A stretch of 64,000 nucleotides of DNA from Clytia hemisphaerica (lineage: Eukaryota; Cnidaria; Hydrozoa; Leptothecata; Clytiidae), in assembly GCA_902728285.1 (NCBI GenBank), contig CACVBU010000024.1, forward strand, positions 124,001 through 188,000, given 5' to 3'. Shown here piece after piece: positions 6,600 through 54,600 of this stretch. Position 1 is the stretch's first letter. Every line of letters starts with the position of its first letter. Below the pieces are notes generated by a model that was not told the DNA's origin, did no database searches, and saw nothing but the letters and a program-made list of their open reading frames with translations. The translations under genes were made by a program, and so were the position numbers.

Positions 6600-8110
6600 C
6601 ACACCAAATCATCTTACATTCTCATTCTTCAAACCACAACCAAAATTCACAATTTATACCTTCTGACTATAAGTTTTTACAATCTATTTCTTCAAACCAT
6701 CAATCTTTGCACTTTATTTCTCCAAAACCATCAATCTTTGAAATTCAAACCAGAAATTTGCACAATCCATTTCTTCATACCATCAATTTTTACAACCCAT
6801 TTATTCAAACCATTAATTTTTGCAATTTATTTCATCAAGCCATCAATTTTTACAATCTATTTCTTCAACCATTAATTTTTACAATTTATTTCATCAAGCC
6901 ATCAATTTTTACAATTTATTTCTTCAAACCATCAATCTTTACAATCCATATCTTCAAACCATCAATCTTTGCACTTTATTTCACCAAAACCATCAATCTT
7001 TGAAATTAATATCTTCAAACCAGAAATTTGCACAATCCATTTCTTCAAACCATCAAATTTTACGACCCATTTCTTCAAACCATTAATTTTTGCAATTTAT
7101 TTCATCAAGCCATCAATTTTTACAATCTATTTCTTCAACCATTAATTTTTACAATTTATTTCATCAAGCCATCAATTTTTACAATTTATTTCTTCAAACC
7201 ATCAATCTTTACAATCCATATCTTCAAACCATCAATCTTTGCACTTTATTTCACCAAAACCATCAATCTTTGAAATTAATATCTTCAAACCAGAAATTTG
7301 CACAATCCATTTCTTCAAACCATCAATTTTTAGAACCCATTTCTTCAAACCATTAATTTTTCCAATTTTCCAAAAGACGAATGATAAAAAATGTTTTGTT
7401 TCCGGAATGCGGGTGAAGGAAAAAAGTTATCATGCGGCCGGCCGGAAAATAATTTTTTTTGCTATTTTTGATAATTTATGGCTCATTGAAATAGAGTTTA
7501 AGAATAACTTTTATGTATAAACACAGCATAAATTATGCCCTAAATTACAACAAGTACGGACTACTAACGAACGAAAGTTTGTGGCCGGGGGGGTCAGAAA
7601 AAAAATTTTTTTCGCACCCGGCCGGTTTCCGGAAACAAGAAATTTTTTTTACATCCCATTTCTTCTAACCATCAATTTTTACAATCTAATTCTTCAACCA
7701 TCAATTTTTACACTTTAATTCTTCAAACCATCAGTTGTTACAATTTATTTCTCCAAAACCATCAATTTTTACAACTTATTTCTTCTTTGGGACAAATTTT
7801 CCCCAAAACTTATTATTCGAGGATTAGCCATAATTTCATGCCAAACTTATATCTACCAACTCACATTTACTTCTCAGCCGTCTGACTACTTGATTGGTTT
7901 CTACCCCTAATCTAGGTCATAGGCAAATGGAAAGTTAAACCATCAATTTTTATATCCCATTTCTTCTAACCATCAATTTTTACAATCTATTTCGTCAAAC
8001 CATCAATTTTTATAATCTATTTCTTCAAACCATTAATTTGGACATCCCATTTCTTCTAACCACCTACAATCTTTGTTCTTCAAATCATCAATTTTTCACA
8101 ATGTAATAGA
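6600..8110 (+). repeat. 30-bp minisatellite with a 270-bp higher-order unit
   Basis: Tandem copies of a roughly 30-bp unit (ACCATCAATTTTTACAAT followed by TTATTTCTTCAA) run from about 6640 to 7370 and resume at about 7650-8110. Within the first block, nine units form a 270-bp segment that is duplicated: the stretch from about 6757 recurs from about 7027. The spacer (7370-7650) contains GGCCGG-rich sequence and a second inverted GGCCGG segment. Because 30 is divisible by 3, the array creates repetitive open frames rich in Phe, Ile and Asn, which are by-products. Confidence 0.85.
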
Positions 8111-11230: not shown

Positions 11231-11319
11231 TTTTCTATAAATCATTCATCTTTCCTCAGTTCTTCTCTTTCAGAAAATAAAATAAAATGGTTTGGAGATT
11301 ATTAAAGATTTGATGCAAA

Positions 11320-11715
11320 ATGTTGACCATCCTATGGAATAGTGTGGTTTTGCTATTTATTTTTGGTAGAGCCGTTAGCCAATCAACTCATCCTGACGCA
11401 AATAAATATTGCCAGAGTATAGACTTTGTTCAAGATGTCAAGTTCAATAACCCCAAATGCAATGGTCATAAAATGAATATACGTAACAAGCGATGTGCCG
11501 GTATATGTGGATTACGATTTATACCTAACCCTGACGATCCCCGACTGACACCGTCCGACTTGTGTGTAATGTGCCGACCGACCATCAGTGAAATTGAATT
11601 AAGCGTTACTTGCGTGAACGAGCAAGAACTTGTTAAATTAATTGTTGTTACAGACTGTAAATGTTTAAGTGTCGATTGCACTTGCAAGATGAGGAAACCT
11701 ACATTGTTCAAATGA
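11320..11715 (+). CDS. Secreted cystine-knot (CTCK-like) protein
   Basis: A single-exon frame of 131 residues. Residues 1-21 form a signal peptide (MLTILWNSVV then LLFIFGRAVSQ). The mature part has 11 cysteines: 31, 47, 59, 63, 82, 85, 98, 113, 115, 120 and 122. The CAGIC motif (59-63) gives the C-x-G-x-C ring of a cystine knot, and the closing CKC (113-115) fits the last knot cysteines. This is the plan of the glycoprotein-hormone, bursicon, DAN and norrin class of secreted ligands or antagonists; I cannot choose among them. The start gives a clean signal peptide. A TTCTCTTTCAG acceptor lies 46 nt upstream, so the 5'UTR may be spliced, and a short upstream frame begins at an ATG within that leader. 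AATAAA occurs at 11872-11877. Confidence 0.75.
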   Translation: MLTILWNSVVLLFIFGRAVSQSTHPDANKYCQSIDFVQDVKFNNPKCNGHKMNIRNKRCAGICGLRFIPNPDDPRLTPSDLCVMCRPTISEIELSVTCVNEQELVKLIVVTDCKCLSVDCTCKMRKPTLFK

Positions 11716-21877: not shown

Positions 21878-22816
21878 AGTAGACGAACGCATCAACAATC
21901 AAGAGAAATGGCAAACTCGTTCCCTGCGTATTATCAGCTTTTTGACGCCTACTGATATAAGCGCTGGATAATACCCTGATATTGTCTGGTTTTCGAATGC
22001 AAAAGACTACCTAATTAAAAATCAAACGTCAGATATCCCTCTCAGTGACTGAGCATCTGGCCTACACAAGGGTATTCTCTGGCGTCTATTAGTAACGTAA
22101 ATAAAGCCTGGAATACACTGGGACGAGATTGAAGAAACGGAACCCCTTTCAATTCTGAATACAACCTTAATTTGTTGTTTTTTTTTGAATTTTTTTAGAT
22201 ATTCGATAATTTTTGTAAATCCCTCTTGTAAAAAGGAATTTAGATATGGAAATTGTATAGTGAAAATATAATTTATGAACTAGTAAAACCCAAAATTTAA
22301 TCACTGAAAATTGTATGCATTTTCTTCGGAAAAAAGTAGATTTTCATTTGAGCTTTTGTTTGAGAATCAAACAAAGAATTTCCATCTTATTGTAATGATT
22401 CGAAATTCACTCAATACGCTCAATGATTTCAGAGATTTATTCCATTTGTAAGAATTATATTCTGTTCTTCTTTCTGTACAACACTGTATAGCTTCGTAGC
22501 TTCGTGGATGTTGCAGAACTAATTTTCAATCTAATGCTACTTTAATTGATGATTTCTAATTATTGAAAAATCTGTTAGTAGTATTTTGAGATTACTCACT
22601 TCACAATCTTCTTCTATTCTAGGGACGTTTCTTATTTGTGATTTGATTGGAAAGGACTTCATTCAAGATACTGGTTGATTGCCATGATCAATTCTGTATT
22701 CGCTGAATAGAATCTTATTGTTTGTCGTCACAGTGTAAAATTCATACACTATGATACTCACGGTATACGAAAGCAGGTTGAAAATTTTTCGTGTGCAAGT
22801 TTTTATAAGTTAAGCT
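21878..22816. other. Ceramidase 3' flank, gene-free
   Basis: Includes the AATAAA at 22100-22105. No further exon or RNA gene is visible up to the giant transposon. Confidence 0.45.
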
Positions 22817-22937
22817 GGATCAGGTGCAGTTAGCGCGGTCACTGGTTGGATTCTTTAGTAGTGGAGATCACTGTTAAAGAATATAACCTGATGTCGTTTA
22901 ACCTAATAATGTTATAAAATACAGACCAGAAAGTATT

Positions 22938-25087
22938 TCACTGTTAAACAATCCAACCTAGTCCACTGTTAAACAATCCAACCTAGTCCACTGTTAAACA
23001 ATCCAACCTAGTCCACTGTTTAACAATCCAACCTAGTCCACTGTTTAACAATCCAACCTATAGTCATGTCCAGTCCACTGTTAAACAATCCAACCTAGTC
23101 CACTGTTAAACAATCCAACCTAGTCCACTGTTAAACAATCCAACCTACTCCACTGTTTAACAATCCAACCTAGTCCACGGTTTAACAATCCAACCTAGTC
23201 CACTGTTTAACAATCCAACCTACTCCACTGTTTAACAATCAAACCTATAGACATGTCCGGTCCACTGTTAAACAATCTGACCTAGTCCACTGTTAAACAA
23301 TCTGACCTAGTCCATGTTAAACAATCCAATCTAGTCCACTGTTAAACAATCTGACCTAGTCCACTGTTAAACAATCCAACCTAGTCCACTGTTAAACAAT
23401 CCAACCTATAGTCATGTCCGGTCCACTGTTTAACAATCCAACCTATAGTCATGTCCAGTCCACTGTTTAACAATCCAACCTAGTCCACTGTTAAACAATC
23501 CAACTATAGTCATGTCCAGTTCACTGTTTAACAATCCAACCTAGTCCACTGTTAAACAATCTGACCTAGTCCATGTTAAACAATCCAATCTAGTCCACTG
23601 TTAAACAATCTGACCTAGTCCACTGTTAAACAATCCAACCTAGTCCACTGTTAAACAATCCAACCTATAGTCATGTCCGGTCCACTGTTTAACAATCCAA
23701 CCTATAGTCATGTCCAGTCCACTGTTTAACAATCCAACCTAGTCCACTGTTAAATAATCCAACCTATAGTCATGTCCAGTTCACTGTTAAACAATCCAAC
23801 CTAGTCCACTGTTTAACAATCCAACCTAGTCCACTGTTAAACAATCCAACCTATAGTCATGTCCAGTCCACTGTTAAACAATCCAACCTAGTCCACTGTT
23901 AAACAATCCAACCTATAGTCATGTCCAGTTCACTGTTAAACAATCTGACCTAGTCCACTGTTAAACAATCCAACCTATAGTCATGTCCAGTTCACTGTTA
24001 AACAATCTGACCTAGTCCACTGTTAAACAATCCAACCTATAGTCATGTCCAGTTCACTGTTAAACAATCCAACCTAGTTCACTGTTAAACAATCCAACCT
24101 AGTCCACTGTTTAACAATCCAACCTACTCCACTGTTTAACAATCCAACCTACTCCACTGTTTAACAATCAAACCTATAGACATGTCCGGTCCACTGTTAA
24201 ACAATCTGACCTAGTCCACTGTTAAACAATCTGACCTAGTCCATGTTAAACAATCCAATCTAGTCCACTGTTAAACAATCTGACCTAGTCCACTGTTAAA
24301 CAATCCAACCTAGTCCACTGTTAAACAATCCAACCTATAGTCATGTCCGGTCCACTGTTTAACAATCCAACCTATAGTCATGTCCAGTCCACTGTTTAAC
24401 AATCCAACCTAGTCCACTGTTAAACAATCCCACCTATAGTCATGTCCAGTTCACTGTTTAACAATCCAACCTAGTCCACTGTTAAACAATCTGACCTAGT
24501 CCATGTTAAACAATCCAATCTAGTCCACTGTTAAACAATCTGACCTAGTCCACTGTTAAACAATCCAACCTAGTCCACTGTTAAACAATCCAACCTATAG
24601 TCATGTCCGGTCCACTGTTTAACAATCCAACCTATAGTCATGTCCAGTCCACTGTTTAACAATCCAACCTAGTCCACTGTTAAATAATCCAACCTATAGT
24701 CATGTCCAGTTCACTGTTAAACAATCCAACCTAGTCCACTGTTTAACAATCCAACCTAGTCCACTGTTAAACAATCCAACCTATAGTCATGTCCAGTCCA
24801 CTGTTAAACAATCCAACCTAGTCCACTGTTAAACAATCCAACCTATAGTCATGTCCAGTTCACTGTTAAACAATCTGACCTAGTCCACTGTTAAACAATC
24901 CAACCTATAGTCATGTCCAGTTCACTGTTAAACAATCTGACCTAGTCCACTGTTAAACAATCCAACCTATAGTCATGTCCAGTTCACTGTTAAACAATCC
25001 AACCTAGTTCACTGTTAAACAATCCAACCTAGTCCACTGTTTAAGAATCCAACCTAGTCCACTGATAAACAATCCAACCTACTCCAA
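22938..25087 (+). repeat. Left-arm tandem array of the giant transposon
   Basis: About 2.15 kb of the 25-bp unit CCACTGTTAAACAATCCAAC plus CTAGT, with variants TTTAACAATC, CAATCTGACC and a longer form carrying TATAGTCATGTCC. A higher-order duplication is visible: the rare variant TAAATAATCC occurs at 23751 and again at 24681, and flanking units agree, so a block of about 930 bp is duplicated. There are no unique spacers, so it is not a CRISPR array. Confidence 0.93.
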
Positions 25088-25134
25088 CAATCCTTCGAGG
25101 ATTGGCCATATTAATGACCTTATTTCGAAATTTC

Positions 25135-25734
25135 CAATCTGTTTTTCATTGTTTGATCCGTCAAAGTTGAACTTGAGGGAATAAATCACCTTTTCAGTGA
25201 TGACTCTAAAATGCGTTTAAACCAACTGGCATTTGTAATTTGGCATTTGCTCATGAGGGATTTTAATAGCTTTACCATTGTATTTTCTGTCATGGCATTT
25301 AAGGAATCGTCTTTTTAGAGTCATCACTGAAAAGGTGATTTATTCCCTCAAGTTCAACTTTGACAGATCAAACAATGAAAAACATGGAATTTCTCAAAAA
25401 CTGCAGTCATTAAGACTGAAACTTTTTGCCGTAGGGCTAGGCTATGGCAAATCTTGCAAATTTTACAATCTATAGAAAGAACTGAATAAAAAACGTCAAA
25501 TACTTTAAAAAATCAAAAATGTCACTTTTTCTCTCTGTTTTGGTTCCTTTGTTTGATTCGAAATGCCAGAAAAGGGGATTCCTTTGCTCAAAATGGCATT
25601 TCAAATGCCAATAAAATGCCAACACGCTGGCATCATTAGGCATTTGACAAACCGAACAATTGCGCGGAACAATAGAATTCAAAAGAATACTGCAAGCAAT
25701 TACAAATGCCAGGCTGGTCTAAACGCAGCCATTA
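25135..25734. repeat. Overlapping inverted repeats inside the giant transposon
   Basis: Two inverted pairs overlap. First, about 75 bp at 25135-25212 (with GAACTTGAGGGAATAAATCA) recur inverted at 25317-25390. Second, GCGTTTAAACCAACTGGCAT near 25212 recurs inverted, with mismatches, at about 25700-25734. Several GGCATTTG copies lie between. This looks like a small element disrupted by another; borders are uncertain. Confidence 0.55.
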
Positions 25735-25739
25735 TCAAT

Positions 25740-28700
25740 AATGTTTGACATTTGATTTTAATATTGATGTTTTTATGTGTAAGGCTTGGGGTATGTTTTG
25801 TTTCTTTTCGTTCGTAAGACTTAGGGTAATTCTTACATTTTCCGTAAGTCTATCTTGTGGTTTATTTTTTTTGTTTTTTTTCTTAACATTTTTTTGGTTG
25901 TTCTATGGCCTTCTATACCTATGCAGACAGAAGCCTGTTCCATATGCGCTAGAAAATTAAAAATCGAAAATTCTAACTACTGTCCTAGGTGCAAAAGACG
26001 ATCCCATGCTAAGTGTAACGGCATATAAGCAAAATTCATTAAAAATATCTGCCTCTGCAAAACTTGCAGAATTGACGCACTACCTAATTTTGATTCTGAT
26101 GATGAATTACCTGCTGGTAAAGTCATAAGTTACTTAAAATCATATTTTGAGCATTTGAATACTATCTCGAATACTTTTTCTAACATTGATTCGCAAAAAG
26201 ACGACCAGATTAACGAGTATGACTATAATGACCACGTGATTAAGAATTTTAACTGTAAATATTACAGTACTCAGAATTTACCTATCTTCCTCTCAACAAA
26301 ATTCACTCTCTTGTTTTCATCTTAACATATGTTTTCTAGATAAACACCATGACAATCTCATGACAATATTATCTAAACTCAATCATAACTTTGATTTTCT
26401 TGGTATTAGTGAGACCCGACTAAAATCTTCTATCAAAAACTCGAAAAACACAAATCTTTCTATCAAGGGTTATAAATCTTTTGACACACCAGCTGTTTCT
26501 TCAGTTGGAGGTACTGTTTTCTATATTTCTGAATCTCTCGATAGTAAACCTCGCCAAGACTTTTCTAAAATCATCTCTTTTAATAGTGGCAATCTTGAAT
26601 CTACTTTTGATGAAATAATTTTTAAAAACCGAAAAAATCATTGGGTGCATCTACAAACATCCTTCTTTCAAAATCGATCTTTTTAATGAACAATATTTAT
26701 CACCTCTTTTGAAAAAAGCATGCTAAGAAAATAAAAAGCTCATTTTGTTAGGTGACTTTAATATTGATCTCCTTACCTGTCATACTGAAATCTCTCACTC
26801 TAAGTTTCTTGATACACTTGGTGCATATCAAATTCTTCCATCGATCATACTTCCTACTAGGGTAACCGACACATCCAGCACTCTCATCGACAACATTTTC
26901 ACCTCAAATACTGACTGTTCTTCGATATCTGGAAATCTTACAGTGGCTTTATCTGATCATCTACCACAATTTTTAATATCCTGAATACTTCTAATTCAAA
27001 ACTTAAGCCCCATTTGCCCTTTCGTCGTGGACTGGTCTAAATTTCGTGCACATATCTTTAAACGTGAATTTGATAGCATTGACTAGAAAGGCTTGATCGA
27101 TATTGACAAAGGTGATGTTGAATCTTCTTTTAATGCTTTGATACTCGTTTTGCTCTTTTATATGAAAACCATGTACCTCTTAAACAAGTTACTAGACGTG
27201 AAAGCAGGTCTTCTTCTGAAACCCTGGATCTCTAGAGGTATCTCACTTCGATGAAAATTAGAGATGGCTTATTTCGTGACTATCTAAACACAAACCTACC
27301 TGATCTGAAGGCTTTCTTGCGTGGTAGGTATAAATTTTATCGTAACCGAATCGTTTTTCTCTGTCGTTTGAGTAAAAAACTTCACTATTCTAAATTCTTT
27401 TTTCATAATTCAGGAAATATTCGAAAGTTATGGCAAGGCGTTCGTGAAATTATATCCTCTTCCTCATCTTCTAGCTGCATCTCTCTTAATATTGAGGACA
27501 CCCTCTCTTCTAATCCCAAAGAAGTTTCTGAAACTTTTAATGACTTCTTTGTAACAATCGCAGGTAGTATTCATTCCAAAATCCCTTTTACTCGTCCTCG
27601 TTTCTCTGAGTGGTTGAAAGACGAAAATCTGAATGCAAACTCTTTTTTCATTGTTCCCACGACCCCTAATGAAGTATTTGCTGTTCTCAAGTCCTTAAGT
27701 GATAACAAATCCACGGCGGTCCAAGTAGCATATCCTATCCGATAATCAATTCAAATCTACAAAGCTTTTCTCTGATTCTTTCTGACATTATCAACTTGTT
27801 TTTCTATTCTGGTATTTTTCCATCTAAACTCAAAGAAGCCAAAGTCATACCTATCTTTAAAGAAAAAGGCTCTCCTGCACTTGATGCTGAAAACTACAGG
27901 CCCATCTCTCTGCGCTCAAACATTGATAAAATCTTTCAAAAACTTATGCACAAACGTCTTATGACTTTTCTTGATCAATCAGGCTCTTTGTATCCACTCC
28001 AATTTGGTTTCCACTCAAAACACTCTACAGAAACAGCACTTCAATATTGTGTTGATCAAATCTTAACTGCTTTGGATGAAGGTGAGTATGGCTGCTCTAT
28101 TTTCATTGACTTACAAAAAGCTTTTGATACCGTTGACCATGAGATTTTAACTTCAAAACTAGAATTCTATGGGGTTCATGGGACAGCTCTTGATTGGTTT
28201 CGCTCTTTTTTATCTGATTGATCACAATTTGTGTCTATTTCTAGCATTAGTTCTAAAACTAAGCCTATGCTTCACGGTGTTCCCCAAGGCTCTGTTCTTG
28301 AACCATTATCATTTCTTCTTTACGTTAACGACTTGTATATCGCCCTTCCTTATTCCCAAGTTAATTTATTCGCTGATGACACAATGCTTTTTATCAGAAA
28401 CGAACTCTTAAAACTGTAACAATCACCTTTTTTTCCCATGATTTCTTTTGTTTGATGAAGAACGTTGCTCCGACGTTGCCTTCTCTCGCCAGTACGTATT
28501 TTTTTCTTGCGGAATTTATAACACTCCTTATTAAATATTTCCCGCTTTCCAAAAGGGAAATATTTATTAAAACGGGCTTTCTCCATAATTTCCCGTGTCA
28601 AAACGCCTTCCGTACGCCCTGACTGACGCCCGTTTTTATTTTCACAGCGAAAGATGCATCCAGTGAATTATAAGTAATGCATCATGATTCAAGTCGACTG

Positions 28701-31045
28701 ATAAACTATATATATAATATATGTTACAAGTTCCTTACGGATTCTCAAGCCCAGTTATGATAAAACTATTACATGTTAGTAGCAGACCCGACTGGCAATT
28801 GTTATGTAGCAGGTTGAAACATGAGTATTTGCTGCTAGAAAGATGCAGTTTGTTTTCAAGTTAAAATCTTTAAAATAAATCAAACTGTGTGGGTTTCTTT
28901 ACTTCCAAACAACCTACCAATAGTTTTGGAACACTCCATAATAAAGGGAGATGGCTGTTCTTGTGGATTGACTTTCTGGTTACCCCATATAAACACGATG
29001 TGACATGAAAGTGAAGAGACTTGTTGGTTTTTTGATTTGTTGGTTTTTGTTTGATTTCTTGACTCATATATCTCATGGCAAATGGGATAGCAAATGACTT
29101 TTCATTTATTGCTTGGCTTTACATATGATACATCTAACTTTGAACCCTCCAGAATGTTGAAAAAAGCATTTTATGAGATAAGTTTCGATTGTGATTGTAA
29201 TTTTCATGGAAATTTTTAATCGACAGATTTGACTTGGCGTCAGTTTTGTTTGGTTGATAAATCTTTAGCTTTACCATGACCGTGGGATGATTTTCAATAA
29301 ACTTTTGTTGTTATACACAGTTTTGTTTCCTACACATGATGACTCCAGCCATGATTGGTATCAGAATTTTGGAAAAAAACATCTTACGACGACGAGAAAT
29401 TGTTGATAGAAATTATATTGACTTATTTTTACAATTTTGGTGGTGTGGGTTTTGTTGTTGTTTACACCGTGGGATCCTGTTAGGGTATCTTGATTGTTGT
29501 TTGTTGGAATTGATTACCAAAAAAAAGAGAACCTTTTTTTGATAAATACTTTATTTTTTTCATGAACCGTGTGGATGGTTGACATCTTTCTCTAGTCTTG
29601 TAAACCAATGCAGTGTCTGTTTTCAAATCTTGAATTCTCTATACCTACTGAACTGAATTGAAGCTCTGACTAGCTCTGTTTAAAGCTATTTAAATGCTTT
29701 AAAACTTTAAAACTTTGAGGCATATTCTTTTCTTTGTTGCTATTAAAGATAGATTTTTACTTTGTCCTAATGTAAATTTATTGTAAAGTTTTAGTTTTTG
29801 AGTTTAGTTCATCTGCAGTAGTATTTTTTCAGTAATCCTTAAATCTTGTGAATAAAGTAACATTTAACCAGACTTATTGCCCTCATTATATTCAAATTTT
29901 TATTTTTTTTTAGGACTGATGAGTACATATTTTTAAATACCAAAACAAAGCAAACAACATGCCAGTTCTTTCTAGACAAATATATATGTATACTTTATTA
30001 TGTGTGCTTTGATTTCTATTTTAATCAACCCTCTCAACTGCTGATCTTTCAACTATCATTTAGGATTATAGAATGGGCTTTCATAGTACCATTTTCTCTA
30101 AGTATTTTTTACCACTTGCATGGATTAAAATATTATTTTCTCACGATAAAAGCTCACCCTCAATAGGGTGACACGACATTTGTAGAGTTTTTGAACAACT
30201 TAAGACTTGGAATTGTAACTTGTAACTCTCACCTTGCTTTCTTTTACTAAGGCTAATTATCCCTTTTTATATATGTCAATAATGACCTTCATTTTTAAGG
30301 AAATATTTAGTCGCAATTTTGCGATTCTTGTTTGGGATTTACATACGGATTATCTTTTTTCTCACGGTTGAGTGGATCGTTCTGTAAACGTTTACCTAAA
30401 AGTTTGTTCTCTTGGTTTGATTGGTGGATTCTTTGCAACATTAGGTAATGTTTTTGTCAGGTTTGTATCGAAAATCTCGTGCTTACGTAGTTGGTGGTTT
30501 GGTCTCTACCGAGAGGAATGTTCGAATTCCAGGGATTATCTTTTAATATTCTTTTTATTTACAAAATCTTTAATCGAATGTTACCACCTCTTCTGCAAGA
30601 ACACTTCATTTTGACTCGGCTTGATGATGTTGAGCGTCATGAAGTCATGCGATGTAAATCTGGTCTGTTAAAACTTCCCGAGGTCTCCACAGTAACTTAT
30701 GGCAATTACTCAGTACTATATCAATCCATTTTATCTTGGAATGAACTTCAGAAATTCTTGACCTTTGATATGATATGTCAACCTTATAATTGGATCGTCT
30801 TAAGGACTTAATTAAATTATATTACCTGTCGCAATATTTCTAATTATTTTTATCAAATTACCTATTCTAGCCATAGATTCATTTATATCTTACATTAACA
30901 TAGGTACTTATTTTTATAAAAATTTTTGTAGATTTATTTCTTGTAACTTAACAATTTTGCGACAACCTCCTTAGTTTAGATTTTCTTCTATGAGTGTGGT
31001 CGCTAGTCTTGTTATAGACAAATAAATAAACACTACTACTACTTG
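25740..31045 (+). pseudogene. Degraded CR1/L2-like LINE, + strand copy
   Basis: Ordered fragments of a non-LTR retrotransposon. 25924-26110 encodes a PHD-like finger (CSICARKL, then CPRCKRRSHAKC and CLCKTC) broken by a stop. 26360-26984 encodes an endonuclease (ETRLKSS, GDFNIDLL, SDHLPQF). 27251-28419 encodes reverse transcriptase (FIDLQKAFDTVDH, GVPQGSVL, FADDTMLF) with stops and frameshifts. 30491-30811 encodes the C-terminal part (HEVMRCKSGLLKLPE). The 3' end resembles that of the minus-strand copy (CTCCTTAGTTTAGAT, GAGTGTGGTCGCTAGTCTT) and ends in ACTACTACT near 31045. About 2.07 kb at 28420-30490 is unrelated and replaces roughly 200 codons. The 5' border is approximate. Not functional. 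Confidence 0.85.
28420..30490. other. Unidentified insert replacing part of the + strand LINE
   Basis: Unrelated to the LINE, this block sits where the other copy encodes the end of reverse transcriptase. I find no terminal repeats, splice chain or recognisable protein. Its open frames (28870-29076 and 29336-29542) are short and unsupported. AATAAA-type signals occur, for example near 29850. Confidence 0.4.
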
Positions 31046-31228
31046 TCACGAGTAAACAACCTAACCTAGTTTCATTCCTGGTCACTGGTCTCTTAAAGAA
31101 AGCAGATACTCTCAGCTATCCAACGAGCTATAAAAAAACTCTAAATCTTTCTGGTTCAGGATGTATTGACATTTATACTTATACTTGGTGGAAATACAGT
31201 ACATAGTGTGATTTGCGTTGTTACTAAA

Positions 31229-32495
31229 AGAGGTAACGAGTGGTAACGATGTGGTAACGAGGTAACCAGTTAAAAGCGGTGGCCCTAAGGGCTCTAATTT
31301 TGAATAACTCGATTCTGGTGAATGTAGAGCAGGACTTAATGTTTCTAGTGAATGTGATAGTGGAGTCGATGGTCCTGTTGAATGTGCAGCAGGGGTTGGT
31401 GGTTCTGGTGAATGTGCAGCTGAATATGGTGGTTTTGATGATTGTGCAGCAGGAGTTGGTGGCTCTGGTGAACGTGATAGTTGAGTTGATGGTTCTGGTG
31501 AATGTGATAGTGGAGTTGGTGGTCCTTGTGATTCTGCAGCAGGACATGATTGTTCTGTTGATTCTGCGACATGAACTGGTGACTTTGCAACAGAACCTTG
31601 TTGTTCTGGTGATTCTGCAACAAAACCTAAAGGATCTGGTTATTCTGAAGCAGCAACTTGTGATTATGGTGATTATGCAGCAGGAACTGGTTGTTCTGGT
31701 GGTTATGCAACAGATCCTTGTGGTTATAAAGGTTCTACAGAAATACATGTTGGTTCTGATGTTTCTTAGCACAAAACTGTTAGTTTTGGTAGATCTATAT
31801 CAGGACTTGGGATGGATGGATTATCATGATTTTCGAATATATTGTATTCAGGTGTTTGACAGTTTTCTATAGGGCTAGAATTGTGATAAATGCTATCTAA
31901 AGACATTAACAACTGTCAGTGTTTGACTTATTTTGCCAGATACCTAATATTAGTAATAATGTGTTGGCTTATAGGTTTGAACTATAAGCTCCACCATTAC
32001 ATCCACAAGGAACTGAAACTCCTGCTACACAATCATATGCACCAAAACCACCAAATCCACCATCAAATTCAACAGTAACTCCAACTTCATCAGCAACTCA
32101 AACTCCAACGTTGCATTCAACAGAACCATCAACTCCAACATCACATTCACCAGTACCGGTGTATTCACCAGAACCATCAACTCCTGCCTCCCATTCACCA
32201 GAAACACCAATCCCTGCTGCTAATTCAACAGAATCACCGACTCCTTATGCACATTCACCAGAACCACCAACTCCTGCTGCACAATCATCAAAACCACCAA
32301 CTTCGGCTGCACATTCACCAGAACCACCAACCCCTGCTGTCCATTCAACAGGAACACCAACTCCACTATCACATTCACTAGAAGCATTAAGTCCTGCTCT
32401 ACATTCACCAGTATCGAGTTATTCAAAATTAGAGCCCTTAGGGCCACCGCTTTTAACTGGTTACCTCGTTACCACCTCGTTACCACCTCGTTACC
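31229..32495. repeat. Inner palindrome with a 30-bp Pro/Thr-coding repeat
   Basis: The left arm from GGTAACGAGTGGTAACG through GCGGTGGCCCTAAGGGCTCT recurs inverted at 32390-32495. The arms continue inward as a 30-bp tandem repeat reading, on the + strand of the right arm, roughly PTPAAHSPEP per unit, and its inverse in the left arm. An open frame with no stop runs from about 31990 to 32530 (about 180 codons, Pro, Thr, Ser and His rich). It could be a captured mucin-like exon or a coding-period minisatellite; there is no start codon in good context and no splice partner. Confidence 0.7.
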
Positions 32496-32499
32496 ACCT

Positions 32500-32667
32500 G
32501 TTTAACAGTGGACTAGGTCAAATTGTTTAACAGTGGACCGGACATGTCTATAGGTAGGATTGTTAAACAGTGGACTAGGTTGGATTGTTAAACAGTGGAC
32601 TAGGTTGGATTGTTAAACAGTGGACTAGGTTGGATTGATAAACAGTGGACTAGGTTGGATTGTTTAA
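32500..32667 (-). repeat. Right-arm tandem array, part 1
   Basis: A short block of the 25-bp unit in inverted orientation (AACAGTGGACTAGGTTGGAT). It is separated from the main right array (36118-37327) by the minus-strand LINE, so the two parts were once one array. Confidence 0.85.
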
Positions 32668-32668
32668 C

Positions 32669-32705
<37 letters not shown>

Positions 32706-35700
32706 TTTATTTGTCCTAAAAAGCGAGACTAGCGACCACACTCATAGACATAAAGCTAAACTAAGGAGGTGGCCGCACGATATAATTACAAGAAAAGCTA
32801 AGAAAAATAAAGTTACTAAGGTCTTACTAGTAACAAAGTGAAATAAAATTTTTTATAAAATAATTTTCGAAAAATTGGAAAAAATTTAAAAAAATAAATA
32901 AAAGAAAAACTAAAATAAAAAAAAAGAAGAAACTATTGAAATTTAAAATCAAACTCGAAAAAGAGAGGGGAAAAAAAATGTAAAAAATTAAAAAAAACAA
33001 AAACAAATCAAGTGTACGAGGAAAGAAAATATAATTTACTTAAATCTTTAAGACGATCCAATGCTAGTGTAGACGAATCATCGAAAGTAACAAAATCTTG
33101 AATTTCATTCCAAACCAAGATGGATTGGTATAAAATTGAATAGTTACCATAAGTCACTGTTTTTACTTCAGGTATTTTTAAAAGTCCAGACTTACAACGG
33201 ATTACTTCATGACGGTCTGTATCATTTAAACGTTTGTACTCAAGAGTTTGTATGAGAGGAAGAGGTAATTTTCGATTCAAAAGTTTAAAAATAAAGAGAA
33301 TGTTAAGGTATTTAACAAAATCAAAAAATGAAAGAAGTTTAAACTGCAAAAAGAGAGGAAAAGAATGAGCACGGAAGTCAGAAAAAGACATGATTCTGAG
33401 AGCTTGTTTTTGAAGAATAAGAATTCGGCGGGCGTGGATCGTTTGGCGTTGCCCCCAGATTTGCGCTGCATAAGATATGTGACATTGAAAAAGAGAAAAA
33501 TACAATGAAGTTAATATTTTCTTGTCGACATAATGCCGAAGTTTACTCAGAGCTCCATTAGCTCTCTTTAGTTTATTGCAGACAAAATCGATGTGGTGTT
33601 TCCAGTTCAGATGTTCATCAATATACACACCAAGGTATTTTACAACTTTGCTTGGTCTGAGCCGATGCCCGTTGATTTTAATTTTCAAGTCGTAATCGAT
33701 CTTCTTACGTATTGGACGGAATAATAAGAGCTCTGTTTTACTAGCGTTTATAGAAATTTTATTAGCTTTGAGCCAATTCATAAGAAGCTTCAGATCAATA
33801 TTAGCTTGTTTGGCGATCGGTTTCAAAGATTCATTCGCAAAAAAGAGCATAGTATCATCAGCAAACAAACTGACAAGAGAATAGCGAAGAGCAATATGAA
33901 GATCATTAACATAAAGGAGAAAGAGTAGAGGGCCTAAAACAGAACCTTGGGGGACACCATGTTGCATGTGTTTAGAAGAAGAGCTTTTACCAGAGACTGA
34001 AACAAACTGTGATCTTTCAAAAAGAAATGATCGAAACCATTCAAGAGCTTTCCCACGAACCCCATAAAAATCTAGCTTTGACAGTAAAATAGAGTGGTCA
34101 ACGGTATCAAATGCCTTTTGTAAATCGATAAAAATTGAGCATCCATACTTACCTTCATCTAGAGCACTTGAAATTTGGTTGATGGAGTAAAGGAGGGCTG
34201 TTTCAGTTGAATGATTTGATCGGAATCCGAATTGTAATGGGTAGATTGAATTTGATTGGTCGAGAAAGTTCATCAGTCGTTTATGCATAAGTTTTTGGAA
34301 GATTTTGTCAATATTAGAAAGAAGAGAAATTGGCCTGTAGTTCTCAGCATCGAATGGAGAACCTTTGTTTTTGAAAACAGGAATAACTTTCGCTTCCTTC
34401 AGCTGACTTGGAAAGACACCAGTAAAGAAAGAGAGATTTACAATACGAGTAAAGATCGAAGAAAGGGTGTCCAAATTGGAAGAAATGATTCGATAAGGGA
34501 TGCTATTCGGACCTGAAGCCTTGTTTTCACTGAGAGAAATAAGAGCTTTAGAGAGTTCAAGATTAGAAGCAGGAGCAATGAGAAAGTAGTCGGTATTTCG
34601 ATTGTCATTCTTCAGCCATTCTGAAAAATGATGACGTGTGAAGGGAATTTTGATCGTATTTTACCTGCAATGGTTGAAAAGAAATCGTTAAAAGCTTCAG
34701 AAACTTCTTCAGGATTCGAAGATAGGGAATCATTGATGTTAAGAGAAATAGAGCTTGAAGAAGAAGGAGAAGCTATAATCTCTCTGACGCCTTGCCATAA
34801 TTTTCGAAGATTGCCTGAGTTTTGAAAAAAGTAACGAGAATAATGGAGTTTTTTACTCGCACGGATAAGAGAAACAATGCGATTTCGATAAAATTTATAT
34901 CTGTCACGAAGAAAATTCTTAAGATCGGATGAAGAATCAGGAACTTTCAAATAGTCGGTTTTAAGGCTATCTCTGATGTTCATAGAGACGAGAATACCTT
35001 TGGTGATCCAAGGTTTGAGTAGAAGGTTAGCTTGACGTCTGGTCAACTGTTTCAAAGGAACATGCTTATCATACAAAGAAGAAAAACGAGTCAAAAAAGA
35101 ATCAAAAGATGAGTCAACATTTCCCTTTTCAATTTCAAGAAGACCATTCCAATTGACGCTATCAAATTCTTCTTTGAAACTAGCCTCGTCAAATCTAGAC
35201 CAATCTCGACGAAAAGGAAGTTCAGGTTTGTACTTAGAGTCACAGTCAGTATTCAAAATTAGAAATTGTGGAAGATGGTCAGATATAGCAACTGTAAGAT
35301 TTCCAGAGAAAGAAGAGCAGGGAAAGGGAGAGGTAAAGATGTTATCAATAAGAGTACTAGAGGTATCAGTGATCCGCGTTGGCAAGGTAATAGTTGGTAG
35401 AATCTGGTAGGCACCAAGAATGTCAAGAAATTTGGAGTGAGAAATCACAGAGTCACAAGTCAAAAGGTCTATGTTGAAATCGCCTAACAAAATAAGATTT
35501 TTATTTTCTTGACAGGATTTTCTCAGCAAAGGTTTTAAGAATTTATCATTGAAAAGGTCGATGTCTAAAAGGGGATGTTTGTAGATACATCCAACAATGA
35601 AGTTTTTCCTATTTTTTAAGACGATTTCAACAAAGGTTGATTCGAGATTACCACAGTCCGAGTGTACTATCTTTGAAAGATCTTTACGAGGTTTTTTGTT

Positions 35701-36117
35701 GAGAGAGTTCGAGACAAAAAGAGCAGTTCCCCCAACTGTTGAGACTGCAGGGGTATCAAAAGATTTGAAGCCGCTAATAGAAAGTTCAGTGTTTTCGATA
35801 GAAGATTTGAGTCTTGTTTCAGTGATACCGAGTATACTGAAATTATGATTGAGATTAGAAAGTAAAGTAGTAAGGTTATCATGATGTTTTTCTAAAGAGC
35901 AGATATTGAGATGAAGGCAAGAAAAAGTTTGTTTTTTGAGAGGTAGAGAAGCAAATTCTTGAGTACTATGATATTTGCAGTCAAAATGATTAACATGATC
36001 ATCAAAAGTAATATCGCCACGTTGTTCATCGATTTGAGAATCGAAGTTAGAAAAAGAGTTTGAAATAGAATTTAGATGTCTAAAATATGATTTTAAGTGA
36101 CTTATATCTTTACCAGT
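32668..36117 (-). mobile_element. CR1/L2-like LINE, minus-strand copy, nearly intact
   Basis: On the minus strand a frame open from about 36112 to 34612 encodes the endonuclease (HLNICSLEKH, ETRLKSS, GDFNIDLL, SDHLPQF) and linker. It is followed, after a one-base frameshift near 34640-34650 in a run of A, by reverse transcriptase to 33008. Motifs are FIDLQKAFDTVDHS, HGVPQGSVLGPL, LFADDTMLF and VKYLGVYID, with a C-terminal HEVIRCKSGLLKIPE segment. The frameshift is inferred because the next frame restores agreement with the + copy (IPFTR, FSEW). The 5' end is truncated inside ORF1 (GKDISHLKSYF) and the 3' tail is (TTAC)n at 32668-32700. It sits in the 25-bp array, whose unit reads on across the insertion without a clear duplication. 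Confidence 0.9.
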
Positions 36118-37327
36118 GAACCGGACATGGCTAGGTTGGATTGTTAAACAGTGGACTAGGTATGATTGTTTAACAGTGGACTAGGTCAGATTGTTTAAGG
36201 CCGTTTAACAGTAAACCGGACATGACTATAGGTTAAATTGTTAAACAGTGGACTAGGTAGGATTGTTTAACAGTGGACTAGGTCAAATTGTTTAACAGTG
36301 GACCGGACATGACTATAGGTTGGATTGTTAAACAGTGGACTAAGTAGGATTGTTAAACAGTGAACTAGGTTGGATTGTTAAACAGTGGACTAGGTTGGAT
36401 TGTTAAACAGTGGACTAGGTTGGATTGTTAAACAGTGGACTAGGTTGGATTGTTTAACAGTGGACTAGGTTGAATTGTTAAACAGTGGACTAGGTTGGAT
36501 TGTTTAACAGTGAACCGGACATGGCTAGGTTGGATTGTTAAACAGTGGACTAGGTTGGATTGTTAAACAGTGGACCAGGTTGGATTGTTAAACAGTGGAG
36601 TAGGTTGGATTGTTAAACAGTGGACTAGGTTGGATTGTTAAACAGTGGACTAGGTTGGATTATTAAACAGTGGACTAGGTTGGATTGATAAACGGTGGAC
36701 TAGGTTGGATTGTTTAACAGTGAACCGGACATGGCTAGGTTGGATTGTTAAACAGTGGACTAGGTAGGATTGTTTAACAGTGGATTAGGTCAGATTGTTT
36801 AATGCCGTTTAACAGTAAACCGGACATGACTATAGGTTAAATTGTTAAACAGTGGACTAGGTCAAATTGTTTAACAGTGGACCGGACATGACTATAGGTT
36901 GGATTGTTAAACAGTGGACTAGGTTGGATTGTTAAACAGTGGACTAGGTTGGATTGTTAAACAGTGGACTAGGTTGGATTGTTAAACAGTGGACTAGGTT
37001 GGATTGTTTAACAGTGGACTAGGTTGAATTGTTAAACAGTGGACTAGGTTGAATTGATAAACGGTGGACTAGGTTGGATTGTTTAACAGTGAACCGGACA
37101 TGGCTAGGTTGGATTGTTAAACAGTGGACTAGGTTGGATTGTTAAACAGTGGACCAGGTTGGATTGTTAAACAGTGGAGTAGGTTGGATTGTTTAACAGT
37201 GAACCGGACATGGCTAGGTTGGATTGTTAAACAGTGGACTAGGTTGGATTGTTTAACAGTGGACTAGGTCAGATTGTTTAACAGTGAACCGGACATGGCT
37301 AGGTTGAATTGTTTAACAGTGAAATAC
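36118..37327 (-). repeat. Right-arm tandem array, part 2
   Basis: About 1.2 kb of the same 25-bp unit in inverted orientation, with recurrent longer forms carrying CCGGACATGACTATAGG or CCGGACATGGCTAGG. It ends next to the unique terminal segment that matches the left end. Confidence 0.92.
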
Positions 37328-37451
37328 TTTCTGGTCTGTATTTTATAACATTATTAGGTTAAACGACATTAGGTTATATTCTTTAACAGTGCTCTCCACT
37401 ACTAAAGAATCCAACCAGTGACCACGCTAACTGCACCTGATCCGTTAAGCT

Positions 37452-41500: not shown

Positions 41501-42536
41501 ACCTTACTGGGGACAGACTTTAACAGATACCTATCAGCCAGACAGACCTACCAGCTTAAGATGTTTATTTTGGACTGAAAACTCTAGAGTGGTTCTAAAC
41601 CTTTTATATTTTACTTAAAGAAATTGTACCAAAAAATCTTTTTTGCCTATTTTGGGGGTGGTGCACTTTTTGTACATTTGATTTGACAGTGCCCACAAGT
41701 ATACTATATGTTTTAATTTTCTCAGCGTACAGTTCCTTTGACAAAAACTAAAGTCTATTTCAAGTTAGCTGGCAGTCTTTTTTCAAACCTTGATAACTTT
41801 TGATAGAATTTCAATTAAGTAGCAATTTTGTGCTCGTTGAAAGGACAAATAGGAGTGGAATATTGTTGTAAAGAAAAAACTCAAAAAAGGTCGGAAAATA
41901 AAGATTGAAAATGAATTGAAGAAAATCAACTTCTTCAATAATTGTGCTATAATTATCATTTTCACACGAGTGATTCTTTGATTTTAGAACATCATTAATG
42001 TGAAAAAAAAATTCAAAAAAAATTATTCTATCAAAAGATATAGTCCAAAGTTTATCAATGATTGACTTCAAAAATCATCAAAAAACAACAAGAGCCTTTT
42101 ATTGATTTATAAATGAATATTTTTGAAATCGTTTTTCGCATTTATGATGTTTTAAGATTATAGAGTTTCTGATACAAAAATGAAGATCATAGCATTATTC
42201 TACAAGAAGTTGATTTTCCGGATTTTCTTGTTAATTTTTCATCTTCGTTTTTCCATGTTTTGATTTTTTTCTTTTTTGATAATATTCCATTCTGAATTAT
42301 CTTTTTAACAAGCACAGAACAGCTAACTAATTCAAATTCTATCAAAAGGTATAGAGGTTTGAAAAAAGACTGTCAGCTAATTTGAAATAGACTTACCATT
42401 AATTAAAAATTAACTGTACCATCTGATAGAGCTTGAAGAGTAGAGCTCCAAAATGGAGTCATTTGTCTCATTTGATTGGCTAATTTCCATGGAAATGGAC
42501 AATATATCTTCAAAATCAAAAATGCTGATTTATGCT
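41500..42536. other. Gene-free stretch
   Basis: AT-rich sequence with partly symmetric phrases: GACTTTTTTCAAACC-type sequence near 41776 and its inverse near 42358, and ACAGTTCCTTTGAC near 41730 against the 42410 region. This suggests a decayed inverted-repeat element around 41710-42415. No coding frame is supported. Confidence 0.35.
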
Positions 42537-48629: not shown

Positions 48630-51600
48630 ATGAAGAATTTTATTTTGGTAAGATGAATTTTACATATTTTGTCTTCAGTCTACAAACTCTTATTTCAGAT
48701 TAATTTATTTTCTCATTTGAACTAGTTTTCATTTGTTTTGTATCTAGAGAAAGTTTTCACTCGTTAATTCTGATGCTTTTGTTGCTTGTCTCGGGAACTT
48801 TATACCTATTACCTCAGTCGTTGGATTTTCTTTTTATAGATATTAGTCTTACTGCAGTTACTCACGAAGTTGTTTGGTCGGCCTTCGGATGAAGAAAGTT
48901 TAAAAGGTTTGTACGGACTTAAGCCTTGGTAGTAATTCATCCTCTTCCCAGACTAATTTTATACCTCAAGGCCTCGATTTTTAACGGAGTGTGTTTTTCT
49001 GCTGAACATGACTGTTTACCTTCCTGGTATAATTTTCTTTAAAGAAAAAGGCAATTTTTAAACTTGTGCATATTGATAGAAAATAGATATATTAAATAGT
49101 CTATGTTTTTTATTCATACCATTTTTGGTGATAAAAGAGATGATAAAAAAATTAATCTTTTATTTATTTAAAGTGTGTAAAGAGCCTTTGCTTGGTCGTG
49201 GCTCAGCTGCTACATCCGTGTGTAGCGGTGCAGCTCCGGACGCAGCATGTAGCAAAACCAATTGTGCTGATGTCCGGCTTGGTGTTAGTCACCCCTGGTG
49301 GTGTGGTTCAATGCAAGATGAATGGTTCACTGTTTATTTCAATGATGTTACACGTATCACGGGTTTTCACGTGCAAGCTGCATCTCAGAGAGCTCTTGTC
49401 CAATTCAGCTTGATGTATAGTGTGACGAGGACAGATGATGGTTTAAAGTTTTATGGAACCTCACAAGATACCGTGAAAAAGGTATACCCCTTTATATTTA
49501 TTTTCATTCAAAGCTTCCGCAAAATTCATTCCGTTTAAAAAAAATTTACAAATTTGTTTATTTTCTTAACTGGCCTAGCAACTCAAGAAAGTTTACTAGA
49601 ATCATTTTATCATTATCTTTTTCAACTTAAGTTCGAACGTCTGTCTGTCCTGGGACAGGCTGGAGACTTCACAGTAGGGCCTACTAGTAATTTAAAAGAT
49701 ACTGAAATTGAGCCAGTGCGGTTAGCACGTTCGACAGTGGCTTTACAACACAACCCCTTGATATTAACCATTAAATTTATTTTTGGAAATAGATTTTCGA
49801 TTCTACAGAGATGTTCGAGACATTTTGGTTAGAGGAGTGGATTGATGCGACAATTATATCGATACGGCGTGAAAATAACGGTGGACATACACACCAAATT
49901 CAAGTGGAATTCTATGGCTGTCCTCACTATTACGGTAACAAAAATCATTTGTATTGTTCAATTATGTTATGATTAATGGATCTTTTTTATTGTATTTTTA
50001 CACTAGAGAAGAGTCGACGATGATGAATTTTTTTTGGGATCTATCTAAACCACAGTTGTTGAATTTAAAAATTTCACGGAAACAAATTATGACTTATTTT
50101 TATCATTTATTTTAACACACCATGCTCAAGGAGTTCTAATGTTCGAAGGGTTAAATTTTGTTTGCTCAAAAATACAAGGGTTAAACGTTTACAGTACAGT
50201 GTTATGGGATGAAGTATACAACGTATTAAGAGGTTTTGTAGGCTGCATGCATCCCCAAATTAGTTTTGATATATCAAAACTTATCAGAGGGGATGTGTGC
50301 AGCCTAGAGGTTTTGCTATTTAAAAAATTCGAGCTCATTTTATAGATAGTTGGGCTCTCTACTACAGTACTCAAGAGGTCACCAACACTGAAACCGTATC
50401 CCACCCACAAGATGGATACCTCCAATGGAACAATGACGAGGAGATTAATAAAGTTGAATTCAACTTTGCAACTGAAGAAGTGGTCGAATACTTTGATATT
50501 GAACTACCTATAGAATCTGAGAGAAAGAAGGATTTCTTACTGGTTCTTTCATATACTGACGTGTATGGTGAAAAAGTAAGTTTTTCGATCCCCTCCTTAC
50601 AATTTTTTAAAGCCTTCGGATGTTCTCAACTTTTTAAGTTTTAAGCCTGAAAATGCACTGAACATGTTCTTATTTTGACCCTTTTGTGAATATTTTTGAC
50701 CATTTTCCTAAGAAATAAGGTGTTTTTAAGTCAACAGCCTTAAAATGTTCTTTAACAATTTGGCCAGCGAAGCCTTATGTTCTTATATAGTTTGTTTTTA
50801 TAAAAAAACGTCTATCGATTTGTTTTCTGTTTAACTATGATTGGATAAATCAGAGAGTGATTTCATACCGGGTTACTTAGGTTAAAATTTTGGAAAAAAG
50901 TAGAGCAAAGTCTATCGTGCATCAAAAGCCTGTAACTACTTGGTCAATTTAATAACGCTTTACTCTTAGGTTCCAAATAAACGGGGCCCCCCGTTTATTT
51001 GCAAGAGCAGCCACCAGCAGATCTTTTTGAAATATCTGTTCTTTTTTTCCAGAAGAGTAAATTTTATGGATAAAACTAGGAGAGACTTTCCTCAAAACAC
51101 CCAGGTAAAATCCAGGGGTCGCCTTAAAAACATCTGTACCTAAAATCCAGGAGCACATTTTAAGGAAAAACACATACAATTTTCCAGCGGACAATCATCT
51201 GTTCAGCCAGATTCTTTTTTCCAGGGAGCTTTATAATTTTCTTAAAAGGTCCTATTTTCTAGGAGCATTTTAACTTTCTTAGAGAATAGCATAATATTTC
51301 TAGAGAACAGATATATACTTTTTCCAGGAGTACCATTTTTCTCCCAGAACAGAATGATATAACCCGGGAGAGCCGAGGATACTGAACAGATAGTTTTTTC
51401 CAGCAGAAAGGGACCTCAAGAACAGATATTTCATACTTCCTAGCAGGTGGCTGCTCTTGTATTTGGAACCTAAGAGTATCTCAATATTTAAAATTGACTA
51501 TCATTCTTCTAATAAATGTAATTAATTGTCAACTTTCTTTTGAATATGGATAACCCTGTAGAAACATCCCTTGATAAATTTTCATGTAAACCAAATAACT

Positions 51601-54600
51601 TTGTCCTAACTTTCTTTATAATTCGTACGATAAGATGATAATAATAATATAAAATAATTCTTTTGTATAGGTATCCTTGCTTTTAACTGACCATTTTGTG
51701 AAACAAGATGGAAACACATTTCGATATGTGTTCAATAGTCCAACAACTCTCAAAGGACAAGTGTTCATTACCCCACTTCTTCTTGAGGAATCAAGAAAAG
51801 TGAAACTTAAGACCGCTTTCTATACCAGGAACACTGCTCAAGGTAAAATCTTTAAACTCTTCTAATATCTATAATTTAACTTACAGTATCTCCTATCATT
51901 TCTATACTCAGCTTTCTTAAGCAAATGAAAGAACAACTTACTTTCGTTCTTTCAGTGTTCAAACTTCTTCCGTCTCAGACGAATTTCCGTCTTTGTGAAG
52001 TTAATAAAGATTTATTTCTGTCTCAAAATTTTGTATAATTTGCCGAAATTTCAAGCTAAAATTGCTATTTAAAAACCTTGGTTGAGCACAAATTTTGGGA
52101 AATTCTTTTGTTTATTCTGCTTTGCCTTTCTATATCATAAAAGTGAATATCTTTAAAATAGTCTGAATCATGGACATCTATAAAACTGATTAATATTATA
52201 AATAAGGAGCATAAATCAGTTCGAGGCGGGGTTAGAGGAGATTCCAGCAGCTTTATATATTTATCACAATAGTTTGAAAATACGTGTCTGTTTTCTGTAT
52301 GAAAAGTGTTTTTGGTGAAACATGCTAAAAATTATAAGTAAGCTTCTCTTCTTTACAACAGCTACTCACCGATGGTCTTGGCACGACGATAAGTTACTCG
52401 ATACTCAAAAGTATCATCATTTTGATACCAGCAACGAAGTCCAACGGTCGCTGCCGTTCCCCTTTAGCCATTGTATGCTATCCATCGGCCCACTTGGTTG
52501 CAAAACTGGTTTCACACTTCAAGCCCATTTTAATGGTAAATAAAATATTCCTGTGTGAAAATGCTTAATGACTAGTAAACTATGAGCCCTTTTTGCTAAT
52601 CATCTGACGACATAGTCAATTTTATAAAAAGAATCACAGACCTTTACAAGAATCATGTTTTGCGCCGGATTTTTTTCTTATTTAGCGCACGACTTCAACA
52701 CAATCATTCATTTTACATTTGCTATTCCGAATATTTATAGAGAATACACAAATCAGTTACTGCATACAATCTTGTCCTTAGAGAGCCGAAGTAGAAAAAC
52801 TCCTGTAGTAGAGGCCACTATGTCTTCCCGTGTGCCTGTGCAAAGGGATTTTATGATTTTTTATCTGTATTTCAAATAATTTCAGTTAGTATACTGAGTT
52901 CTTTTTTTTCTTCAGTACCACAAACACGTTATGAATTTCAGTATGCCGCCACATCAACTCATACTGAGAATTGTGTTCCTGGTGCTCAACCTAGCACTGA
53001 TTGGACACTCGTGTATATCGACCAAGTCCAAATTGTCAAGGGCACTCGCCTCCGTGGTTTTACGTTAAAAAGTGCAGATTGGGAAGGAACAACTTTGGAA
53101 AGAAACATTGACGTGAAAATTTGGATCAACTCACCATCGTCAGACCTTTGTTCTCTAATAAATGGAAATATTGAGCCTTATTTTCAAGGAAGCCTAAAAG
53201 CCAATGTTAAGGATGGTAATATAAAAAGATTTCCCCTCGTTGAACAAATGCAAGATGTTGTGAATTGGCCCTTTTGGTACTCAGGCTCTTCCATTACCGT
53301 AGCTTTCAATGATAGGCCTTATGATGACTTTTTCTATTTTGTGAGATTGTACAGAGACGGTGAGGTTTCTTTCTTTCGTTTTCATTTTCAAATCTTGGTC
53401 ATTCAACTGAAATAACTAGAACTCTAACCTCAATCACTCAAATTCTTTCCTTATCCAAGAAGTGTTTTACCATCTTCCGTAACCTAACCCTGAATCACAG
53501 ACCTTTCGTACAACAGACATGTAATAATGTAATTGCAACTGTCGAAATAACTCGATCGAAACTACACTGTAATTCCTGATGCTCTGTTTTCTCAAATTTC
53601 ATTACAACTTGAAATATGCCCAAGAAGACTTTCCAGAATACTTCTCTTACGGGATTTTAATTTTAGTAACAACCTAAATCAAGATATATTAGATATAACC
53701 GTAATTTCTATCAAAGATATCGGTCGTTTCGAGGGTCCGTTGTTTTGATTGCTGACAATGCTCATTTAGTTTGTTTTGTTAATAGATTTCCTTTGCCTTT
53801 GTATCGTATTATATTCTTTCGCTTCTCTTTTTATAGGGTTCCTCTCTCCTGGCAGTATAATCTACTTTAAGGGCAGAAAGTTTCGCGAGACCGCGGATTT
53901 AAGTTTCGCGATTTTTACTTTTTGAAGAAAATTTACGCAAGAAACTTTCGCGGTTTTTTGTGAATTTTCAATTTTAGTAGCAATAACTTTCGCGAGTGGC
54001 TAGGGAAAGTGAATAAAAAATTATTTCAAATCTCATTTTTTTCTTCAATCGAAAGAGTGATATGCTAATAAATGAAAAATAAACTATTTGCACTTCTTCC
54101 TCCCATTCTGATATCGATAATATCGACTCTCCTCGGCTTTTAAAACTTGTTTAGGAAAATTTCATTTTTTGCGAAAAAATGCCAAAAACGCGAAAAACGC
54201 GACAGCTTCTGCCCGTGAAAGTTTCTGCCCTTAAAGGAGTGTTTTTTTCGGAAGGGCTTGGAACCTTTTAGTGTTTTTATGCTATGTTCGTGTCATTACT
54301 TATAACAAACACGCGTAGTATAGGAGCACGAATCCTAGGGATTACAAGGATCCTATTACTGAAACAAATTTTGGACGCACCATGCGTGCATGACTTATTC
54401 ATGATATGCACCATATTGCAATGTCTTCCACGGACCCAAGAGCTTGTAGGTTGAAAGTGACATAAAATCAGTCAATAAGTCCCTTTCAACCAATCAGCTG
54501 TTGTGCCCGTGGAAGACATTGCAATGGTGTATTTCATGAATTGAGACTTTAACTTTGTATTATTTTTTTCCCATTTTAGTATGTGATCATTCCAACCCTA

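Follow-up and report, generated by a model that had tools for sequence, protein, structure and literature searches.

Foldback transposons are often known without their transposase, and in the Drosophila element FB their arms are built of short tandem repeats. Galileo, a Drosophila member of the P superfamily, carries long terminal inverted repeats (TIRs) with internal tandem repeats, and the binding sites of its transposase lie about 70 bp from the end and within these repeats as well (PMC3688188, in excerpt). Tetris, a non-autonomous foldback element of Drosophila virilis, contains tandem repeats in its TIRs that have fed satellite arrays (PMC4079207, abstract). The Merlin superfamily, relatives of IS1016/IS1595, is described with TIRs that begin with GG and measure 24-462 bp, and with 8- or 9-bp target-site duplications; some Merlins, several Repbase families among them, contain tandem repeats, and in the 2.57-kb family Sy.m_F1 a repeat region on the 5' side is duplicated in opposite orientation (PMC8101967, in excerpt). 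Here we describe a 14.6-kb insertion at positions 22817-37443 of a 64-kb window of the Clytia hemisphaerica genome (bases 124001-188000 of contig 16 in the 417-Mb host assembly; the window is the whole stretch analysed) that is, very probably, a satellite-armed, non-autonomous Merlin DNA transposon (IS1595-like DDE) that was moved in trans.

With published Merlins, as excerpted, this element shares GG ends and an 8-bp duplication, while the DDE_Tnp_IS1595 domain is present in copies with the same ends and not in the element itself. Its non-array TIR of about 120 bp lies within the range given for the superfamily (24-462 bp, in the excerpted text), and becomes far longer when the arms are counted. 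It differs in that this TIR continues into kilobase-long satellite arms arranged in mirror image. To our knowledge, Merlin transposons are not known for such arms. Short tandem repeats also build the arms of FB, which, as generally described, differs from the element in duplication length and in transposase type. The mere presence of repeats in a Merlin is not new, because the excerpted text of PMC8101967 reports them, and Sy.m_F1 is the nearest resemblance to the present arms in that text; in the open-licence PMC literature searched, at the level of titles and the starts of abstracts, no Merlin with kilobase-long mirror-image satellite arms was found. With Galileo the element has in common long TIRs that contain tandem repeats (PMC3688188, in excerpt). 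Tetris differs in its 220-bp repeats and in that its autonomous partner is unnamed in the abstract (PMC4079207), whereas here the type of the partner has been found.

Structure and borders of the insertion

The left end of the element starts with GGATCAGG at position 22817 and its right end runs up to position 37443 with CCTGATCC. The outer 120 bp of the two ends are 97.5% identical (3 mismatches, 0 gaps), and the 8-bp sequence GTTAAGCT flanks the insertion as a perfect duplication (22809-22816 and 37444-37451). The non-array parts of the TIRs (22817-22938, plus strand; 37322-37443, minus strand) each enclose a terminal palindrome (22844-22888, plus strand; 37372-37416), which on the left consists of a flipped unit followed by a direct unit and forms a potential hairpin with 16 of 20 stem positions complementary. 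Inward of the TIRs follow 1.2-2.1 kb of a 25-bp satellite in mirror image: the left arm (22939-25086) is in direct orientation on the plus strand, and the right arm (36131-37321) is inverted on the minus strand, as is an inner piece of it (32499-32671) that was severed by a long interspersed nuclear element (LINE). When units with up to four substitutions were counted, direct copies outnumbered inverted ones 76 to 1 in the left half of the element, and inverted copies outnumbered direct ones 48 to 1 in the right half. The matching ends, the opposed 25-bp arrays and the duplication had all been noticed in a first-pass annotation made from the letters alone, and our counts bear them out: the element was inserted as a unit between the two copies of its 8-bp duplication. 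The same annotation had called the insertion recent; this is plausible in view of the perfect duplication and of interior parts that are 98-99% identical to another copy (C566).

A family with common ends and different satellites

As proposed in the first-pass annotation, we searched the host genome with the terminal sequence and found other copies: the terminal 136 bp gave at least 41 matches (40 of 70 candidates scored). With up to two mismatches, GGATCAGGTGCAGTTAGC occurred 150 times versus 2 times for its reversed control, and ends of the form GGATCAGGTNNNNTTAKC occurred 236 times versus 2 in the reversed control. These copies fall into five subfamilies (A, B, C, D, and F), all with GGATCAGG ends and each with a different satellite unit, whose length is 25 bp in A, 36 bp in B, 23 bp in C, 23 bp in D and 34 bp in F (the last seen in two end pieces); for F, 68 exact ends were counted versus 0 in the control. 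Our partial list of end pairs comprises 60 pairs and covers 0.13% of the genome. From it we fetched 12 further A pairs, 17 elements of B, C and D, and the F copy C207 in three parts; left unfetched were 3 A pairs (two on C3, one on C816), 1 C pair (C193), 1 D pair, both pairs of a D-like variant and 22 F pairs.

A dimer of the A satellite was present at 520 places in the genome (control, 0). All 100 of the places listed were either inside A elements or no farther than 2.5 kb from an A end, and none lay away from an element, in which respect the A satellite differs from Tetris.

Target-site duplications and an empty site

Perfect 8-bp duplications flank 24 of 31 elements (A, 10/13; B, 5/5; C, 5/8; D, 3/4; F, 1/1), and each of the ten A duplications is a different sequence. 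When flanks were joined in silico, those of the A copy C513, with a single GAAAATCA, aligned at 83% across the junction with a repeat copy that lies outside the element within the window (41805-42091, plus strand), and this repeat copy thus represents the empty site of C513; two weaker empty-site matches for the same copy were seen at 72-73%. The joined flanks of C854 gave a weak, gapped empty site (74%), and for 20 of the 22 joined flank pairs, compared among the fetched loci, no match ran across the junction. The joined flanks of the element itself matched their own locus in two parts, together with 23 short repeat pieces of the left flank. The empty site that the first-pass annotation had suggested looking for was hence recovered clearly for a relative and not for 22817-37443. 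Because satellite arms of such length pose difficulties for assembly, one might suspect an assembly artefact or a segmental rearrangement in place of transposition; the perfect duplications of 24 elements and the presence of an empty site leave this explanation a negligible probability.

Transposase genes of the Merlin type in same-end copies

A tblastn search (E up to 1e-3) detected no piece of a transposase in the element, in line with the earlier view of it as a foldback-like transposon lacking an enzyme of its own. By contrast, 21 of the 68 matches to PF12762 (DDE_Tnp_IS1595) in the host genome fall within the 60 listed end pairs, versus 0.09 expected for pairs that make up 0.13% of the genome; the corresponding Poisson value is merely indicative, because the copies are not independent and the list of pairs is partial. 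The 21 matches are distributed over all five subfamilies (A, 4, namely two each in C410 and C3; B, 3; C, 1; D, 3; F, 10), and the domain was identified by sequence in copies of A, B, D, and F and by position in C. Individual pieces matched with E-values of 3.2e-10 (C410, A), 4.5e-09 (C854, B) and 2e-09 (C91, D). The transposase gene is split into at least three pieces: those of C410 hold the blocks QIDES, HSDEW, and IESYW, whose resemblance to known Merlin patterns makes them candidates for the D-D-E catalytic residues, and QIDES/QVDET, HSD, and ESYW blocks occur in separate pieces of same-end copies. In the F copy C207, HSDEW is part of a 293-residue open frame.

The link between the element and the transposase is C410. 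Its ends are those of A and are flanked by a perfect duplication, its arrays consist of the A satellite, its core is homologous to window positions 31042-32500, and it contains the transposase, which resides in a 4.9-kb tandem duplication with 99.2% identity (L021 5257-10000; L022 106-4845). C3 is a second same-end A copy with a transposase, by position. Same-end relatives with a transposase, for which the first-pass annotation had suggested looking, thus exist. Together, these data demonstrate that the element belongs to a family defined by common ends, some members of which contain a Merlin-type transposase gene; they therefore identify it as a non-autonomous Merlin and not as a Galileo-type foldback element. 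Because it lacks a transposase of its own, it was most likely moved in trans, as had been supposed.

The kinship with Galileo advanced in the first-pass annotation is not supported by this comparison. Long TIRs of tandem repeats, the lack of an internal transposase and an 8-bp duplication would all suit a Galileo-like element of the P superfamily. However, the transposase of Galileo is of the P type and contains a THAP domain, whereas that of the element's relatives is of the Merlin type; in the scanned same-end pieces PF12762 was the sole match above the cut-off, and hence the only transposase domain found, and no THAP or P-type match was obtained (no genome-wide THAP or P-type search was made). 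We regard a P-type origin as extremely unlikely. One could also propose that the Merlin genes are mere passengers in an element mobilised by another, unseen transposase, since these elements do gather LINEs and other inserts. This idea is very improbable given that Merlin matches are found inside pairs of five subfamilies, in an excess (21 of 68) far above expectation, and that 8-bp duplications and GG ends are those published for Merlin (PMC8101967, in excerpt).

Outside the listed pairs lie the other 47 of the 68 PF12762 matches, including the strongest ones (C850:491875, C22:429517, C133:1389157, C470:256508, and others). These may represent further families of Merlin, whether armed or armless.

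Cargo and size

The cargo of the element consists mostly of other mobile elements. LINE 1 (about 25212-31044; feature limits 25212-31044 approximate, plus strand) comprises a decayed endonuclease/reverse transcriptase (RT) gene (RVT_1, 4.1e-16) and a LINE-like 3' end; it was found, whole or in part, in 11 of the 12 other fetched A copies and not in the transposase-bearing copy C410. It is interrupted at 28533-30326 by about 1.8 kb of inserted sequence that was seen in none of these 12 copies and of which a 63-bp piece recurs in a D copy (L046). LINE 2 (32672-36113, minus strand), with endonuclease and RT domains (Exo_endo_phos, 3.3e-08; RVT_1, 1.6e-39), lies inside the right arm, is bordered by CAGT on both sides and carries a run of a 4-bp repeat at its 3' end; at an identity of at least 85% it was found in 0 of the 12 copies. 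Neither RT gene qualifies as the engine of the element: LINE 2 was rejected on account of its position inside the right arm and its absence from the other fetched A copies, and LINE 1 on account of its LINE-like 3' end and of its not being found in C410.

The first-pass annotation had considered both size and cargo unusual. About 5.2 kb of the element are LINE 2 and the 1.8-kb insert, neither of which was seen in another fetched A copy; without them it measures about 9.4 kb, and the 16 A pairs among the pairs listed span 6.8-24 kb from end to end. Its size therefore does not set the element apart within its family.

Between LINE 1 and the severed piece of the right arm lies the family core (31045-32498), an inverted pair of 30-bp-repeat blocks with a homologue in C410. 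This core is common to the A copies (L021 2154-3585), and its open frames have a high content of Ser, Pro and Glu. Frames resembling PHD fingers were seen inside several copies (L010 4425-5420, L021 8581-9141, L029 7185-8174); that of L029 gave a weak PHD match below the cut-off (0.00054), and those of L010 and L021 were judged by eye only.

Terminal palindromes match the satellite of each subfamily

In the representatives of all five subfamilies, the terminus contains two copies that resemble the subfamily's own unit, the first flipped and the second direct, beginning at about nucleotide 25; together they form a potential hairpin, and the array follows them. Mirror orientation, counted in 29 elements of A-D, was clear in all except C277, which has units in a single orientation, and C321 and C566 showed extra units that stem from large inserts or internal duplications. 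Arms of A and C as a rule have one flipped unit each (left arm, 11/13 A and 7/7 C), while the flipped copy in B and D is too diverged for this unit count. The A and B units are related, with 0 of 500 shuffles scoring equally well; for the remaining five unit pairs among A-D, where 41 to 499 of 500 did so, a relationship is not clear.

DNA folding of the termini compared with shuffled sequences yielded z values of -3.45 (A), -8.11 (B), -7.38 (C), and -2.66 (D, for which 2 of 200 shuffles did equally well); the F terminus was folded without a shuffle control. Of 19 stem positions, those paired in both members of a comparison and changed on both sides numbered 1 (A-B), 5 (A-D), 8 (A-C), 8 (B-D), 11 (B-C), and 11 (C-D), in stems that were hand-picked from the folds, so that pairing within each is by choice. 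With windows defined after inspection of the termini, each subfamily's own unit fitted its own terminus best at the flipped site in 5/5 and at the direct site in 4/5 cases, and the true assignment of units to termini ranked first of 120 at either site. The terminus thus holds flipped and direct unit-like copies in five subfamilies whose units are different.

Proposed mechanism

By analogy, the element would work like a foldback transposon such as Galileo or Tetris, without being a Galileo. The Merlin transposase of same-end copies, if active, would have mobilised it in trans through a cut-and-paste mechanism. Following the precedent of Galileo, the satellite unit is a putative transposase-binding site; we infer that the core site is the flipped-direct pair located 25-75 nucleotides from the end and that the arms provide extra binding sites, which may have multiplied through slippage or unequal exchange and been homogenised with the terminal copies. 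The arms would accordingly be binding arrays seeded by the palindrome, with the terminal copies and the array co-evolving, presumably along with the transposase's DNA-binding region, so that each lineage would acquire its own satellite. To this broader proposal we give a probability a little short of even.

The arms could instead be a passive by-product of the same Merlin element, that is, drifting arrays generated by slippage or exchange at palindromic termini, with a transposase that needs the outer TIR only. Arm lengths vary widely among copies, C277 with its units in one orientation is 949 bp long, and this copy as well as the 99-bp C435 possesses a perfect 8-bp duplication. What speaks for a function is that mirror-orientation arms recur in all five subfamilies and that in every one of these the terminal copies correspond to the unit, although both observations are compatible with neutral homogenisation as well. 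Passive arms are a real possibility, if on balance a somewhat doubtful one. Very short end pairs of 99-949 bp were observed in L035, L043, C170:549993-550091, and C509:61582-61815, and are perhaps deletion derivatives that are still mobile.

Several observations weigh against the assignment of the element to Merlin or against the proposed role of its satellite. Seven of the 31 elements lack a perfect duplication, and that of C705 is less telling because it sits in a tandem-repeated flank. No empty site for 22817-37443 was found in the genome search with its joined flanks. The transposase of subfamily C (C193) is a case of position only, the N-terminal piece of C410 is without a Pfam match, and a straight-through reading of the PF12762 matches inside A copies runs into stops, which is partly due to the split gene. 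D copies do not have the HSDEW form, their second block reading HSDRW, NSDRL, or HSVRW. Finally, at the direct site of A, the B unit scores 32 versus 30 for the A unit.

Other features of the window

An exon-like frame with a DAN/cystine-knot domain (2.2e-09) is located at 11314-11712, and a series of exon-like frames on the plus strand extends over 49080-63252; the first of these has a weak F5/8 type C match below the cut-off (0.0031), and four others scanned had no Pfam match. Arrays of a 30-bp tandem repeat with a 270-bp higher-order repeat occupy 6674-8062. An Rfam scan of the 64-kb window returned 0 matches at the gathering thresholds.

Implications

This single genome contains an orphan element together with transposase-bearing relatives that have the same ends, in five subfamilies with different satellites. 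The questions of whether foldback arms are arrays of binding sites, and whether transposons breed new satellites in this way, are hereby made directly testable. The findings would widen the known architecture of Merlin transposons to elements of up to 24 kb from end to end, passengers included. If the proposed role of the arms is true, the foldback architecture would be a convergent route, taken in unrelated superfamilies, to specificity via the number of sites.

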